Positions 48,867-55,111 of a stretch of DNA of 64,000 bases are shown in pieces. Each line of letters starts with the position of its first letter. The stretch's first letter is position 1. Origin of the DNA: Brachionus plicatilis (lineage: Eukaryota > Rotifera > Eurotatoria > Ploima > Brachionidae); the NCBI GenBank assembly GCA_010279815.1, contig QEOQ01000544.1, positions 124,001 through 188,000 on the forward strand, in the 5' to 3' direction. A model generated the notes under the pieces. That model ran no database searches and was not told the origin of the DNA. It saw only the letters and a program-made list of their open reading frames with translations. Both the position numbers and the translations under genes were made by a program.

Positions 48867-49749
48867 ATTTTTGTCAATGATTTACATTGGCTTTCAGATA
48901 TTATTTTTATCGAATTTTATCCAAATGTTTACTGGAAAAGATAATTTTTGCAATCTGAATTAATAATTTATTTATTTATTTAAAAAATAATTTAGGCGAA
49001 GTCTTGGCCGGTTGGAATGGAGACTTAGTCCTTCCTTTCAACCACATGATTGATTTTTGATACCACATAATGCAAAAAAAAAAAAATAATTAAATTTTTT
49101 TGAAAAAAGTTAAATAAGTTTGTTTAGTTTTTAAATTTTCCTATTAATCTTAAAAAAAAAATATTTACATAAAAAGAGTTAAAAACTCATTTTGTATAAT
49201 TTAAGTAAAAAAAAAGAAAAAAAAAGAAATATTTTATTAATAATTAAATTAATAATGGAATAAAAAAACATAATTAAAAGTATTTTCTTTAAAAAAAATT
49301 CAGTTAATCGAAAATCAAACAATTGTTATTATTAAGGATTTTTATGCTTCAAAATAAATTCATCTAAAATTAAAATTTAATGCTGCTAAATTTGCCTCAC
49401 TTAGGTTTAAAAGTTTCTATGAAATTTGTTTTCTTTGAATTATTTTTAATGAGTTGTCAATTCTATGAGTTTTTTTTAATAAAATTTTTTCTAATATTTT
49501 GATGATTCTATGAAATTTTTTTTGTTTTAATTAATACATCAACCAAATAAATTAGAGATAAAAAATTAACAGTAAAATTAGGATACAATTTTTTATCAAA
49601 ACAGGAGTAATATTGCCAAGTCTGAATTTTTGGTATTTTATTTTATCGCTTAAAAGACTTAACTCGAAGAAAGTTCTGACATACATTTCATTAATAAAAA
49701 CTAAGAAAATTTTGAAAATTTAAAATAAAATAAATTAACATAAATTATA
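48867..49749. other. AT-rich intergenic region with one retroelement tail
   Basis: Contains the repeat at 48965-49060. Otherwise homopolymer-rich with nothing recognised. Confidence 0.5.
48965..49060 (-). repeat. SINE/LINE 3' end with (AAAT)n tail, reverse orientation
   Basis: On the minus strand GGAAGGACTAAGTCTCCATT and CCGGCCAAGACTTCGCCTAA run into a TAAATAAATAAATAA tail. It has the same architecture as 39655-39740 but a different core. Confidence 0.5.
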
Positions 49750-49799
49750 CTACCCAACCAACCTTCCAGACTTTCTGTTGCCTGTCTCCGCTTCTGGAC

Positions 49800-50383
49800 A
49801 TGAGTGCAACAGCGTCAGACTTTGATGCGAGCTTTCCCAAAATGATTTCGCAAGCTCAATTACAGCCAAATATACAAAATTCTTCAAATTTACCATGGAA
49901 TCAACCCAACCAAAATCAAAACTTCTTCTCACAAATCGTTACAAATCAATCACAGAGCAATCAAAATAACAATATATCAATCAACCAACACAAATCAATA
50001 AACATTTCCAAACACAAAGATGAAGAACAAGAAAAGAAAAACAAACAAAATGCATACACAGCTAAATTTCTGAATAATGAATCTTTTCCAAGAGAACTAA
50101 AATCTTACCTTAAACTACTAAACGAAATAAAGAGATGCAAACCAAAAGCAAACATCCTAAACGCATACATAAATCAAAAAAACGAACTTATCATTAGAAC
50201 AACTTCCAAAGAAGACATAGAATACATCAAAGAGTCATGGCCAAAAGATGCATTTAGACATGGTCTTAAGCACATCAACACTAACCCAAAATTCTTCATT
50301 GCACTTTACAATGTCACAACCGATTTCGATGTCGAAGATGAAGAAAACAAATCATACATGCTAGAAAACTTTAAAATAACTAC
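49800..50383 (+). CDS. LINE ORF1 (gag-like nucleic-acid-binding protein), truncated
   Basis: Begins MSATASDFDASFPKM, followed by an Asn/Gln-rich low-complexity region to about residue 75 and a lysine-rich patch. A folded segment follows with NAYINQKNELIIRTTSKEDI and KESWPKDAFRHG, the RRM-like pattern of Jockey-type ORF1 proteins. LINE coding ends where the MITE begins; the last residues of the open frame (to the TAA at 50397-50399) are MITE-encoded. No zinc knuckles remain. Confidence 0.75.
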
Positions 50384-50435
50384 AGTCAGTTCTCGTTAAT
50401 CCGAACAGACTTATTTTCAAGAATTCTCTTCGGAC

Positions 50436-50646
50436 TGTAAAGTCTTGTAATTGGACTTTAGGGATTTAAGCCAAGAAATAAACAAAGCAATTTAATTTAT
50501 AGTTTATTAAATGGAATCCAAAGTTATAACAAGTAGTTAGTGGTATATATAGTGGTTAGTACATGTGCTTTAGCTGCAGTTTAACTTCACATTTATAAGA
50601 GGACTAGAGAGAAGACAGGGGTGATGTCAAGACACGGGTCTTAACA
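50436..50646 (-). repeat. 3' LTR (element orientation)
   Basis: Begins TGTAAAGTCTTGTAATTGG and ends CACGGGTCTTAACA on the plus strand. It differs from the partner by a 5-bp indel near 50495 and a few substitutions near 50620. Confidence 0.95.
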
Positions 50647-50661
50647 CACCTCCCCCCTAAA
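50647..50661 (-). promoter_or_regulatory. Polypurine tract of the LTR element
   Basis: On the minus strand TTAGGGGGGAGGTG directly abuts the 3' LTR start (TGTTAAG). This is the plus-strand DNA priming site and confirms the element's orientation. Confidence 0.8.
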
Positions 50662-50770
50662 CTATGAGGCAATTATGCTCTAAAAAAAAACTACTACTTA
50701 ACCACTAAGCTAACAACTAAAAAAAACAAACAAACAACAAAAATAACAAGTAAATTGTTTAACATTAATA

Positions 50771-51732
50771 TTACTGCTCGTTAACAAGACGATATGGGAC
50801 CTGTCCCAATGATCTGCGACAAAGTGGACAGTTTCGATTGCCATGTCGTACGTTCTGGTACATGCAATTTTCACATGCTCGATGGCCACAAACCGTTTCA
50901 ACAATTGAATTACAGTTTTCAAACTGTTCTAAACAAATTGGACACGGGCCACCATTGATTCCATGTGCTCTGGTTATTGGTTGAGTATCGAGTTGTCTCT
51001 CCACCCTCTGAGGTGCTTGCTGTTGCCAGAGAGGTCTCCGAGCTCCAAGTGGATCCCGGTTGTGCCTCGCTCTTGGACTTGGCGACCTAGGCGGTTGAAC
51101 AAACTCGATTCGGTTTCGAACAGTCCGTTGTTCAGTGTTCAAAAGATCATTCACCAAGTTGTTTGAGTTGGATAATTGGTCTTGTAAGACGGTGTTTTGT
51201 CTATTTGACTCTACCAGTTGTTGTCGGAGCTCTAGAAGTTGTTGCTGTTGCTCTTCTAGTTGTTGTTGCTGCTGTTCTAGTTGTTGTTGCTGCTGTTCTA
51301 GTTGTTGTTGCTGCTGTTTTAGTTGTTGTTGCTGCTGTTCTATTTGTTGTTGCTGCTGTGCTTGCGGTCGTTGTACTTGTTGGCGTTGAGTCTCAAGTTC
51401 GTCACGGATCCTATCCACTTCGGCAAGCTGTCTCGCCACTCTAGGGGTTGCGGGTACGTTTTGTAACACATGATGTGCTTCGGTGGGCCTCGGATTAATT
51501 TCGAACCAGATGTTTGTGTGCGAGATTCCCTGATCATTGAAATGTCTAACCACTTGAGGGTGAACTGACGAATCCCTGTATCTCACAAACGCGTAGTTGG
51601 TCCTATGAAATCTTCGGTTCTGACCCATTGAATTTCTCCGAACAAATCCTCAAACTGATCAAGTTCTTCCCGAAGTTTGACCGCTGCGTCGTCTAGGTTA
51701 GGGACACCATGCACCATTATATCGTGAACCAT
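50771..51732 (-). CDS. RRM-like, coiled-coil, RING-finger protein encoded by the LTR element
   Basis: The main frame (51628-50771, 285 aa) has an RNP1-like segment NYAFVRYRD (about 11-19), then HPQVVRHFNDQGI and TNIWFEI completing an RRM-like fold. A Gln/Leu heptad repeat (about 90-140, LEQQQQQ units) predicts a coiled coil, followed by a basic Pro/Arg-rich linker. A RING at 229-270 has ligands Cys229, Cys232, Cys247, His249, Cys252, Cys255, Cys267 and Cys270 (CPIC...CGHRACENC...CPLC). The first RRM strand and helix (MVHGVP, NLDDAAVKLREEL) lie in an overlapping frame from an ATG at 51732, offset by -1. Family knowledge predicts an E3 ubiquitin ligase that binds RNA. No introns. It occupies the pol/env position of the element. 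Confidence 0.8.
51254..51359 (-). repeat. 21-bp minisatellite encoding coiled-coil heptads
   Basis: About five units of TTGTTGTTGCTGCTGTTCTAG on the plus strand, each giving one seven-residue repeat with Leu in a fixed heptad position. In-frame expansion can lengthen the coiled coil without frameshift. Confidence 0.9.
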
Positions 51733-52077
51733 TTTGTTATGAATTTTAATTTAAATATTTAAATAATAATCTTAGTAATTTTATAAATTTTACAACTTTT
51801 TGTAATTTATATTTTATATTTTATTTTCACGTGACTAGAGAAAAAGCTAACTTTTTTGTCTTGAAAGAACAAAATGCGACATTGATACAAATTTAGTAGT
51901 TTTTGAATTTAAATAACTTTTTAGTGGTTTTAATTTTTATGTTTAATTCTATTAAGCTAAACAATTAGTTAGACTTTAGGTTTGAAAATATAATTTTGCC
52001 TAAATTTAAAATTTCAATAAAATTACTTCCTTTTAATAATTCAAAGGCTCTTCTGGATAATTATATCCTCCTTTGGT
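51733..52077. other. AT-rich spacer in the LTR element where pol would be expected
   Basis: About 340 bp of AT-rich sequence between the gag-knuckle frame and the RING gene. No protease, RT, RNase H or integrase motif is present in any frame. It may contain the RING-gene promoter or mark the pol deletion or capture junction. Confidence 0.7.
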
Positions 52078-52105
52078 TTAAGGTTCTTCTGAGTAAACTC
52101 TCCTT

Positions 52106-52157
<52 letters not shown>

Positions 52158-52512
52158 TTAACTTAACTATTAAATTAAAAAGTTGGTTCGTATCCTCTAA
52201 ACTATCTTGAGATTGATTCTCATAGATAATGGGTAACTTGGGCTGAAACACAGGTTGACTTGAGATGCGTTTATTGTAAATAAACTGTCTTCGTCTGTTC
52301 GCCTCTTTACTTGAACTATTCGAACCTTCGTCCGAATTGAAGTAGTGGTTGAAACAAGCCTTGATTGTCGTCTTTTGTTCAGTTTTACGCTCACGTTGCT
52401 GTTTATGACAATCTTCGTTCAAATGCTTGTGATGAGTGCATATTGTGCACCAATCGTTTTGATTTGGACTTGCTTCAAATTGGACTTGTTTCTTTGAATT
52501 GGTTGGTTCCAT
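52078..52512 (-). CDS. Nucleocapsid-like CCHC region of the LTR element
   Basis: Contains CTICTHHKHLNEDC, an exact C-x2-C-x4-H-x4-C zinc knuckle, then basic stretches. A run of lysines from a 46-bp homopolymer and SLRRVYSEEP end the frame. It is in the same frame as the capsid ORF upstream, separated by one TGA (52566-52564), so the two parts were, or are by readthrough, a single Gag. The poly-lysine length is likely to vary by slippage. Confidence 0.75.
52110..52155 (-). repeat. 46-bp homopolymer (T on plus strand) within gag
   Basis: An uninterrupted T run that encodes poly-lysine on the minus strand. Length is uncertain in any sequencing technology, and the downstream frame depends on it. 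Confidence 0.95.
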
Positions 52513-52563
52513 GTGAGCGTCCTTGGCTATGTTTGGATAACTCTTAATTTCGTCCAGAGGATT

Positions 52564-53481
52564 TCATCTTCTAAAAGCTTCTTCTAACTCGTAGGCCTTT
52601 TGAAGAGCGTCTTTCAGCGTGTTACAAGTAGGTGGTTTACACAATTCCTGCTTGATTTTGATATCGTGTATTCCTCTGATAAATCTGTCAACAACTATTC
52701 GTTCTAAGGCGGTATATGGTTGTTCCGGATGGGCCGCTTCAGCTAAAAACTCAAGTTCACTCAGATAGTTGTATATGTTTTCGTTTGGTAGTTGTTTGCG
52801 CGCAGCAAACTCAATTAATGGATCTTGATACTGATTGTCCTTACCGTACAATTTACGTAAGGTGTCTTTGATCTCATCGTATGATGCGTGTGGATTGTGG
52901 TTCAGAATACGTTGCTCTAACTTCGCAAGACACTTGTCTTCGATCAGAGTGAGGAGGGCTCCAGTTTTATCGTTGAGTCTGATTGCGTATCTTTCAAAAT
53001 GTTTAATCCACTGATTAAAATTTTTCTCCTCAGTAAATCTTGTTGGTGTGTATGATGGAATGTTTATTACTGGCAAGGGATAATGTGGTTTTGTTCCTGT
53101 AAGCCATTTAATCGGAGAGTAGATCAACGTGAACCAGAAATTGGGTGAACTCTTTTTAGACCATTTTACAAATGTCCACAAAACCACTAACATCACCATT
53201 ATGCCTATAACCGCGGTCCACTTGAGAATACTTAATTTGAACTTTAGTTGTTCGAATAACTTTTCCAAAAGCATCGATATCAACTTTGATGTCGTAAACT
53301 CCATTGCCGTCGCATTACTTTTAAATGAATCCATGTTTGGTTTCTGCGAATCTTTTTGCCTTTGATCACTTTTCACTGGGTTGGTTTTTTGACCGTCTTC
53401 CGTTTCTTTATGACCTAGGAAACTACTAAACACGTTCGAGAGACAACTACTTAAAACGTGGTTGATTAATGTTTTAATCAT
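52564..53481 (-). CDS. Gag (capsid part) with a transmembrane segment, LTR element
   Basis: 305 aa. An N-terminal polar region is followed by a strongly hydrophobic helix (WTAVIGIMVMLVVLWTFVKW, about residues 88-107). A Ty3/gypsy-type capsid domain follows: FTEEKNFNQWIKHFERYAI, DEIKDTLRKLYG, LPNENIYNYLSELEFLAEAA, VVDRFIRGIHDIKIKQEL and LKDALQKAYELEEAF. Ty3-type Gags normally lack a membrane helix, so membrane-associated particle assembly is possible here. It ends at TGA directly before the CCHC region. The ATG chosen is the first in the frame and lies about 70 bp inside the PBS. Confidence 0.82.
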   Translation of the reverse strand: MIKTLINHVLSSCLSNVFSSFLGHKETEDGQKTNPVKSDQRQKDSQKPNMDSFKSNATAMEFTTSKLISMLLEKLFEQLKFKLSILKWTAVIGIMVMLVVLWTFVKWSKKSSPNFWFTLIYSPIKWLTGTKPHYPLPVINIPSYTPTRFTEEKNFNQWIKHFERYAIRLNDKTGALLTLIEDKCLAKLEQRILNHNPHASYDEIKDTLRKLYGKDNQYQDPLIEFAARKQLPNENIYNYLSELEFLAEAAHPEQPYTALERIVVDRFIRGIHDIKIKQELCKPPTCNTLKDALQKAYELEEAFRR

Positions 53482-53550
53482 CTTTACAAACTTGTTGTTT
53501 TTGCACGTGAATTCTTCTATTTACTTGATTTTACTAATGTATATAGTAAA

Positions 53551-53570
53551 ATCCCGACCTTTGGGCACCA
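53551..53570 (-). promoter_or_regulatory. tRNA primer-binding site of the LTR element
   Basis: Two bases inside the 5' LTR, on the minus strand, is TGGTGCCCAAAGGTCGGGAT. The initial TGG pairs with a tRNA 3' CCA, and the implied tRNA end (ATCCCGACCTTTGGGCACCA) has a plausible T-stem and acceptor. The isoacceptor was not identified. Confidence 0.75.
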
Positions 53571-53572
53571 AA

Positions 53573-53788
53573 TGTAAAGTCTTGTAATTGGACTTTAGGG
53601 ATTTAAGCCAAGAAATAAACAAAACAATTTAATTTAGTAAGTAGTTTATTAAATGGAATCCAAAGTTATAACAAGTAGTTAGTGGTATATATAGTGGTTA
53701 GTACATGTGCTTTAGCTGCAGTTTAACTTCACATTTATAAGAGGACTAGAGAGAAGAAAAGAGTGATGTCAAGACACGGGTCTTAACA
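53573..53788 (-). repeat. 5' LTR (element orientation)
   Basis: Partner of 50436-50646. In element orientation it starts TGTTAAGACCCGTGTCTTG and ends CTTTACA. It should contain the promoter and the R region. Confidence 0.95.
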
Positions 53789-54169
53789 GGACTATCAAAA
53801 CTTCGGTTAACCGATAATCCGAAGAAACTCAAATTTATAAAAAAAATTTGGTTTAATGAAAAATGGAGCTTTATCAGATAAAAAAAAGAAACTGTTTTCG
53901 TCATTTTTAATTGTAACAAACAAAAAGAGAGTGAAAATTAATTAAGATAAGTTTGTTTGTGAACTTAAAAAAAATTATCATAACAATAAAATCAAAGTAC
54001 AGTCTAAATTAACAAATTTATCATAACATTTTAGCGAATTTTTTATTCGGATTAGCAAACTCAACAATTTCGGTTTAGCAAGGTTAAATTACATGTATTT
54101 TTCACTAAACAGCTTTTTTTTGTAAAATTTCTTCGATTAATCGCGGTTTTCGGATTATTGACTATACAA

Positions 54170-55111
54170 ACTATTCAATGTCTCGCTTAAAATTGGATAC
54201 TTACCTAAAGAATGGAAAAAGTCTAAAATCAAAATGATTCAAAAAAAAGACAAACCACCTGAAATAGCTTCAACCTACCGACCGATCTCACTAATTTCAT
54301 GTATTGCAAAATGGATAGAAAAAATAGTAAATAACAAACTTAGTTGGCTAGAAAACAAAAATCACCTGCCACCGTGCCAATCAGGATTTAGAAAAAATAT
54401 GAGCACTCATGACCACTTTTTTAGGCTGTACAACTCAATCATTCACGGTTTCAATGATGAATCAAAGACAGCGGTAATATTTTTTGACCTCGAAAAAGCA
54501 TTCGAAAAAATAAATCACAAAGCGATCTTATTTAAACTTAAATCAATTAATCTAAATTCTAGACTTTATAACTGGATCCACAACTTTCTTAGCGACCGAA
54601 AATTTTTCGTGTACTATAAAAATTTTAAATCAGAGGATTTTAACATCACTTCTGGGGTCCCTCAAGGAAGCTGTCTTTCTCCGACATTATTCTCAATATT
54701 TTTCAGCGACGTCGTTACTAATCTACCAAAAAATATTCATAAAGCGCTATTTGCCGACGATTTGACAATTTGGTTCACAGACAAAATCAGAAAAATCCTA
54801 ATAAAATAGAAACTAACCTACAAAAAGCCATAGACTCAATTGAAAATTTCTGTAAATCTTGGGGATTAAGTATTAATTGTTCAAAAACAGTCTACTCAGT
54901 ATTCACTACAGCCGGGTATAGAAAAAATTATGAAAAAAACTATAAACTGAACTTACTTCTTAATAATAGAGATATACCATTAGATCCATTTCCACGTTTC
55001 CTTGGACACTACCTCGATCCAAAACTCAGCTTCAAAAAACATTTCGATGACCTTTCAAAAAAAATACTCGGTAAATTTAAATTTTTAATTTTTAAAATAA
55101 AATTTTTTTTT
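54170..55111 (+). pseudogene. LINE ORF2 reverse transcriptase domain, frameshifted and gap-truncated
   Basis: Contains LKIGYLPKEWKKSKI, STYRPISLISCIAKWIEKIV, QSGFRKNMSTHDH, VIFFDLEKAFEKINH (first catalytic Asp in a DLxKAF-type motif), SGVPQGSCLSPTLFSIFFSD and the catalytic FADDLTIW. Directly after FADDLTIWFTDK a one-base frame change moves the reading to NKIETNLQKAIDSIENFCKS and GLSINCSKTVYSVFTTAG. The frame enters the N gap at 55112. No endonuclease domain precedes it. Inactive as assembled. Confidence 0.88.

Follow-up and report, generated by a model that had tools for sequence, protein, structure and literature searches.

A probable pol-deleted member of a Ty3/Gypsy-type retrotransposon group in Brachionus plicatilis whose longer relatives carry an RRM–coiled coil–RING ORF3

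We analysed a stretch of 64,000 nucleotides from the rotifer Brachionus plicatilis (contig QEOQ01000544.1, positions 124,001 to 188,000 of the forward strand; hereafter, the window), which contains a long terminal repeat (LTR) element with remnants of gag and of a gene for a RING protein, and in which no pol domain was seen. This element is, with a probability that we place at nearly nine in ten, a defective, pol-less member of a Ty3/Gypsy-type group that arose by the loss of pol. Its longer relatives in the same genome run LTR, gag, protease, reverse transcriptase (RT), RNase H, integrase, ORF3 (a third open reading frame, ORF), LTR, and ORF3 encodes a protein with an RNA recognition motif (RRM), a coiled coil and a RING, located where retroviruses have env. 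A sequence-only reading of the window had proposed that the RING gene stands in the place of pol. This proposal fails, as the relatives keep pol between gag and the RING ORF; what distinguishes the window copy is a deletion with a filler of 159 nt.

Pol-bearing relatives in the genome

The genome searched comprises 102.9 Mb in 173 contigs. Matches to the ORF3 protein filled at least 27 rows and corresponded to at least 21 places, of which 19 are ORF3-like and two are RING-only; these two, C1:6527k and C10:1301k, are probably host genes and are not counted among the 19. Among the matches listed, integrase is matched upstream of ORF3, and on its strand, at 11 of these 19 places, in ten cases at a distance of 384–845 nt, and at nine of the 11 (C95, C19, C68, C53, C43, C40:667k, C85, C29 and C8) a gag match follows 2.0–5.2 kb further upstream. 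The other two, C33 and C40:659k, have integrase and ORF3 and no gag match; in the window and C9, gag is followed by ORF3 and no integrase match intervenes. For the remaining six of the 19 places, no adjoining integrase match is among those listed. Together, the 11 places with integrase, the window and C9 put 13 of the 19 within recognisable elements of the group. The earlier suggestion of a non-autonomous element to which the RING gene belongs is thus upheld.

Pfam recognised protease and RT in the C95 copy and protease in C19; in C85, it named protease, RT, RNase H, the integrase zinc domain and the integrase C-terminus. The Ty3/Gypsy order of protease, RT, RNase H and integrase was found in pieces of C85, C19 and C95, an assignment made from domain order and not from an RT tree. 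Furthermore, B. plicatilis gene models join integrase to an ORF3 of the window's own subfamily. The C85 copy is broken by stops, a MULE-like insert, a deletion in gag and the truncation of ORF3 after the RRM. The ORF3 frames at C95 and C19 are intact, as are those of eleven database proteins, which removes the concern that the RING frame might be degenerate in all other copies. Among the 27 ORF3 matches listed, four rows exceed 90%.

Some further places deserve mention. At C91 and C14, the region 3′ of integrase shows a frame resembling an RRM, a coiled coil and residues like those of a RING, interrupted by frameshifts, and at C14 the likeness to a RING is partial. Masking affected the region 3′ of integrase at C55 (partly) and parts of C103, of C2:480k and of the ORF3 at C43. 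The insert in the C85 copy (L066:2936-3661) is a fragment resembling a MULE transposase (sub-threshold, E=7.9e-5) between protease and RT. In deeper Gypsy families, integrase is followed by different ORFs: L073:348-782 (C17), L074:307-915 (C37) and L072:781-1353 (C2:3003k). The C17 ORF bears a weak likeness to an RRM and, by eye, contains a WW-like motif, and the C37 ORF is open in three copies that are 96–97% alike. Pfam found no RING in the post-integrase ORFs of C17 and C37. RRM_1 was sub-threshold for the C17 ORF (E 0.015) and gave no match for those of C37 and C2:3003k, although the C17 and C37 ORFs look RRM-like by eye; in profile comparison with hhalign, the link of the C17 ORF to the RRM was weak (E 0.0038, probability 9%) and that of the C37 ORF was absent (E 0.14).

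The pol-less junction

The C85 copy aligns to window positions 51438–52021 (87%, L020), 52181–52317 and 52932–53789, and its pol domains lie between the first and second of these blocks. On the gag side, the alignments with the C85 and C98 copies both stop at 52181. Positions 51980–52300 of the window have 30 matches, of which two (the window itself and C9, the latter 92% over 321 positions) span the whole pol-less junction, two cover the gag side only, one covers the ORF3 side only and 25 are mainly filler. Of these 25, 12 are no more than 1 kb from an LTR match, another six are equally close to a gag match and seven are near neither; the filler is thus a piece that occurs in short elements of the group. 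At seven places (C71:44786-46145, C64, C60:568k, C43:288k, C74:84k, C94 and C13), both the LTR start and the filler of the window element are present. Most of these places match Gag residues ~70–190, including the hydrophobic segment described below, and C71 and C64 have two LTR matches ~1.0–1.4 kb apart; they look like short non-autonomous elements.

A patchwork of an A-tract and a piece of a short element would be expected from template switching between RNAs packaged together. We infer that switching of this kind during reverse transcription, with RNAs of the group as templates, removed pol and left the filler behind. The resulting junction would then have been copied at least once, because it is present at two loci, and the pol-less copy could have moved only with enzymes supplied in trans.

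Several observations count against this account of the element. Ordinary DNA recombination, instead of template switching, could have produced the junction. At C40:659k, the integrase match is just 32% and lies 1.8 kb from ORF3. In addition, both pol-less copies are defective: in C9, gag is open through the zinc knuckle, but ORF3 is frameshifted between the coiled coil and the RING, and the LTR match at the 3′ end is only 57 nt long. The indications of recent mobility are solely the similarity of the LTRs and the shared junction.

Anatomy of the window element

The coordinates of the element are collected in Table 1. Its boundaries are as the sequence-only reading described them: the paired direct LTRs differ by 4 substitutions and one 5-nt gap, both have TG...CA ends, and a 4-nt duplication of the target site flanks them, as in an LTR retrotransposon. 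A site resembling a primer-binding site (PBS) and a polypurine tract are also present. An exact search with a PBS 15-mer returned four matches, in the window element and the related loci C85, C98 and C103, and a search of the genome with two patterns, in which no tRNA program was run on the matches, found no tRNA gene that matches the PBS exactly. Local alignment around the insertion site gave only short, low-score matches for inverted ends.

Table 1. Features of the LTR element in the window (positions are those of the window)
Feature	Position	Strand	Remarks
LTR element, whole	50436-53788	minus
5′ LTR (element orientation), 216 nt	53573-53788	minus	pairs with 50436-50646
3′ LTR, 211 nt	50436-50646	minus	pairs with 53573-53788
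Target-site duplication GGAC, left copy	50432-50435	none
Target-site duplication GGAC, right copy	53789-53792	none
PBS-like 18-mer TGGTGCCCAAAGGTCGGG	53553-53570	minus	2 nt inside the 5′ LTR; from sequence
Polypurine tract GGGGGGAGGTG	50647-50657	minus	precedes the 3′ LTR; from sequence
Gag-like frame, 318 codons, premature TGA at its end	52564-53520	minus	Pfam PNMA, sub-threshold, E=2.4e-4
Remainder of Gag with CX2CX4HX4C zinc knuckle	52181-52563	minus	same frame, past the stop
Filler at the pol deletion, 159 nt	52022-52180	minus	absent from the pol-bearing C85 copy
A-tract, 46 A on the minus strand	52110-52155		inside the filler
Segment of ~90 nt common to short LTR elements of the group	about 52040-52128		inside the filler
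ORF3 leader	51736-52021	minus	common to the C85 copy, where it lies 3′ of integrase
First half of the ORF3 RRM, ATG at 51732	51583-51732	minus	RRM likeness fades partway; a stop ends the frame
Open frame, 292 codons: second RRM half, glutamine-rich coiled coil, C-terminal C3HC4 RING	50771-51649	minus

No protease, RT, RNase H or integrase was seen between the LTRs among frames of at least 60 aa, by Pfam on four of these frames or among the integrase matches (no separate RT search was made), in agreement with the earlier reading. The RT and integrase expected of a Ty3/Gypsy element were thus not seen in the window copy itself, which is best read, from its sequence, as a deletion derivative of the pol-bearing group. 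Neither of its genes is intact, although the LTRs and the priming-like signals are present. Both Gag and its CCHC knuckle, as previously described, can be recognised, but an in-frame TGA separates them.

The Gag-like frame has a hydrophobic 19-mer at residues 96–114. As such a 19-mer occurs near residue 61–96 in ten of ten Gag frames chosen (those of the window, L042, L043, L044, L046, L047, L049, L037, L040 and L041), close to the N-terminus, the Gag of this group is probably membrane-anchored. Among 90 gag matches listed, four long ones are 95–100% like the window gag (C35, which is the window itself, C9, C103 and C98), and C68 is 88% like it.

On either side of the element, we noted an RT frame with the look of a LINE (RVT_1, E=1.9e-33) to the right, at 54162-54809, and, to the left, at 49734-50399, a frame of 221 codons for which Pfam gave no match.

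Domains and conservation of ORF3

The sequence-only reading had also described an RRM-like, coiled-coil, RING protein with all eight zinc ligands. The domains and ligands are there, but a frameshift inside the RRM of the window copy leaves its halves in two frames, and the 292-codon frame is thus without the first RRM strand, the helix and the second strand. In the C9 and C85 copies, the RRM is in frame. The RING of the window frame matches Pfam zf-RING_2 (E=2.5e-8), with the eight ligands in C3HC4 order. A RING that binds an E2 would need these ligands, a proline after the seventh and an arginine after the eighth, and in eleven intact ORF3 homologues of 269–313 aa, all eight ligands as well as the proline and the arginine are kept in every case. 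Mean pairwise identity is highest in the RRM (0.62), followed by the RING part (0.52) and the coiled coil (0.38). In an AlphaFold model of ORF3, the RRM is followed by a long helix and an end that resembles a RING, and the beta-alpha-beta-beta-alpha-beta fold of RRM proteins is found in ORF3.

A profile search retrieved 21 proteins, and all 21 hold pieces of ORF3, some of them fused to pol. Several B. plicatilis database records match: P0001 is 94% alike over 38% of the C19 ORF3, P0022 is 78% alike over 90% of the C91 ORF, and P0013 and P0018 are further records matched by ORF3 or pol proteins. The gene models P0001 and P0014, which carry the name "E3 ubiquitin ligase RNF4", are by their sequences ORF3 of this element group, and so the name is misleading.

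Selection and age of ORF3

The ratio of nonsynonymous to synonymous substitution rates (dN/dS) was computed on in-frame stretches only. The window ORF3 compared with those of C2:3.06M, C74 and C85 gives dN/dS values of 0.18, 0.21 and 0.25 at dS near 0.37, and C9 compared with C2:3.06M and C85 gives 0.21 and 0.23; gag pairs range from 0.14 to 0.58. As diverged in-frame pairs have low values, we conclude from these sequences that ORF3 has been constrained throughout the family's history; the number of recent copies is too small for a judgement on them. The RRMs of post-integrase ORF3 families are mostly 24–61% alike. Over nine loci with a usable RRM and gag (C85, C29 and C91 by gag fragments; C43, C8 and others excluded owing to masking or fragments), gag and RRM identities are correlated (Mantel Spearman 0.57, p 0.0033), which fits a long joint inheritance of the two genes.

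Possible functions and alternative explanations

The likeliest role of ORF3 is that of an accessory E3 ubiquitin ligase, a tentative assignment to which we give somewhat less than even odds. In such a mechanism, the RRM would keep the protein on the RNA or ribonucleoprotein of the element, multimerisation would come from the coiled coil, and E2~ubiquitin would be brought in by the RNF4-like RING, so that the tag would be placed on host factors or on the element's own, probably membrane-anchored, Gag. It is this probable anchoring that makes a ligase directed at Gag or at host factors plausible. A broader proposition, that an animal Ty3/Gypsy clade encodes an RNA-anchored E3 ligase in the env position, selected across deep families and acting on restriction factors or membrane-anchored Gag, is possible but a little more doubtful still.

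Several results weigh against these proposals. The ORF3 model has a predicted template modelling (pTM) score of 0.33 and does not fix the arrangement of the domains, and Foldseek against solved structures gave a single match at E<=0.001, an RRM entry at 9.7e-4. Among the matches listed, only the C19 protein surely passes the Pfam RRM_1 cut-off, and six of the eleven aligned homologues reach E<=0.01 (best 0.00013). The RNP1 Y/F and F positions are kept in all eleven, but the aromatic position of RNP2 is a methionine in all eleven, so that RNA binding is not certain. The database protein P0013 is without two of the zinc ligands. As for selection, close ORF3 pairs give dN/dS of 0.31–0.64 with few changes, C2:3.06M against C85 gives 0.44, the window against C2:480k gives 0.86 over a partly doubtful alignment, and synonymous sites are saturated in two pairs from different families.

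Where ORF3 came from is also open to other explanations. The sequence-only reading considered the capture of a host mRNA, and the arrival of a host RING mRNA between gag and the 3′ LTR of this single element, whether by capture or by chance insertion, would account for the A-tract between gag and ORF3, for intact ORF3 frames that are open and without introns, for a GC content that is well above its surroundings (0.46 in ORF3 at 50771-51735, 0.38 in gag and 0.25 in the window) and for the two gene models named after RNF4. The A-tract, however, lies upstream of ORF3 and not at its 3′ end, and among the 21 proteins of the profile search, within the limits of that search, there is no separate host RRM-RING gene. 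Above all, ORF3 is found at at least 19 places, 11 of them after integrase, in deeply diverged families, and its identities correlate with those of gag. The pol-bearing relatives thus refute a recent capture or single-copy chance insertion for the window copy, and we regard it as very improbable. An origin as the envelope or entry gene of an endogenous retrovirus, which would agree with the env position, is the least credible explanation of all: 42 pattern matches in viral contigs yielded no confirmed relative, the 50 viral structure matches listed all have E >0.001 and are mostly named as RING or RRM proteins, and the fold is RRM–helix–RING (no search was aimed at glycoprotein features of ORF3).

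Other functions must be weighed against that of a ligase. LINE-1 ORF1p is a retroelement protein with a coiled coil and an RRM and no RING, and ORF3 could likewise be mainly an RNA chaperone or packaging factor, its RING serving as a dimerisation module without a ligase role. The likeness is one of domain content, and in ORF3 the order of the domains is reversed, a RING is added and the class of element is different. The RRM being the best-conserved part of ORF3, as well as the post-integrase ORFs of C17 and C37 in which Pfam finds no RING, would suit such a role. Nevertheless, the conservation of the ligands, proline and arginine speaks for a working RING, and the C17 and C37 families are no clear case of an RRM without a RING because their links to the RRM are weak and absent, respectively. 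We consider this role less probable than that of a ligase. It is less probable still that ORF3 restrains its own element, for instance by marking Gag for degradation, as a gene for copy-number control or host tolerance. Near-identical copies are indeed few among the gag and ORF3 matches listed, but low copy number has many causes, and long purifying selection on ORF3 is more easily explained by a benefit to the element.

Relation to known elements

Elements of the LARD and TRIM types are bounded by LTRs, have no pol and need enzymes in trans. The window copy differs from them in keeping remnants of gag and ORF3 and in having a pol-bearing source group in the same genome. The resemblance of ORF3 to the RNF4 and RING2 E3 ligases is at the level of sequence (the nearest solved RING is that of RNF4, 4ap4) and is confined to the RING, which in ORF3 is accompanied by an RRM and a coiled coil.

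Close parallels are found in bdelloid rotifers, where the LTR elements Vesta, Juno and TelKA have an ORF3 described as an env-like fusion protein, a GDSL esterase, a DEDDy exonuclease or a coiled-coil (CC) or transmembrane (TM) protein (Rodriguez et al. 2017, PMC5408684). As far as that account goes, both sets are LTR elements of rotifers in which gag and pol are followed by an additional ORF3 that is mostly not a classical env and comes in lineage-specific types; in contrast, the present elements have a monogonont host and an ORF3 with an RRM, a coiled coil and a RING. In the main text of PMC5408684, the terms ring, RRM and ubiquitin do not occur, and GDSL and DEDDy types are not among the Pfam matches listed for our ORF3, the bdelloid sequences not having been directly compared. 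In Calliphora vicina, a RING has been reported inside the Gag of Isis-like and Osvaldo Gypsy elements and in the single ORF of Pao_Cv1 (PMC3630058). These also place a RING in an LTR-retrotransposon protein but, in the relevant parts of that paper, neither a separate post-integrase ORF nor an RRM is mentioned. A 2026 paper on D. virilis has a RING domain in the legend of an element, and the word "ring" was not found in PMC6338049 (accessory retrotransposon domains), PMC7264820 (extra ORFs in plants) or PMC7943196 (rotifer elements). No published RRM-RING ORF3 was found in the literature searched, which was without bioRxiv and most subscription papers. Relative to that literature, RRM–coiled coil–RING is a new type of ORF3 in a known kind of element, given that extra ORF3s are known in rotifer LTR elements.

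Implications

Gene models of Brachionus plicatilis that are named "E3 ubiquitin ligase RNF4" can be retrotransposon genes, and this matters for counts of gene families. Should ORF3 prove to be active as a ligase, a gene of a transposon would be the counterpart of the hijacking of ubiquitin by viruses, in a group of animals that can be cultured.

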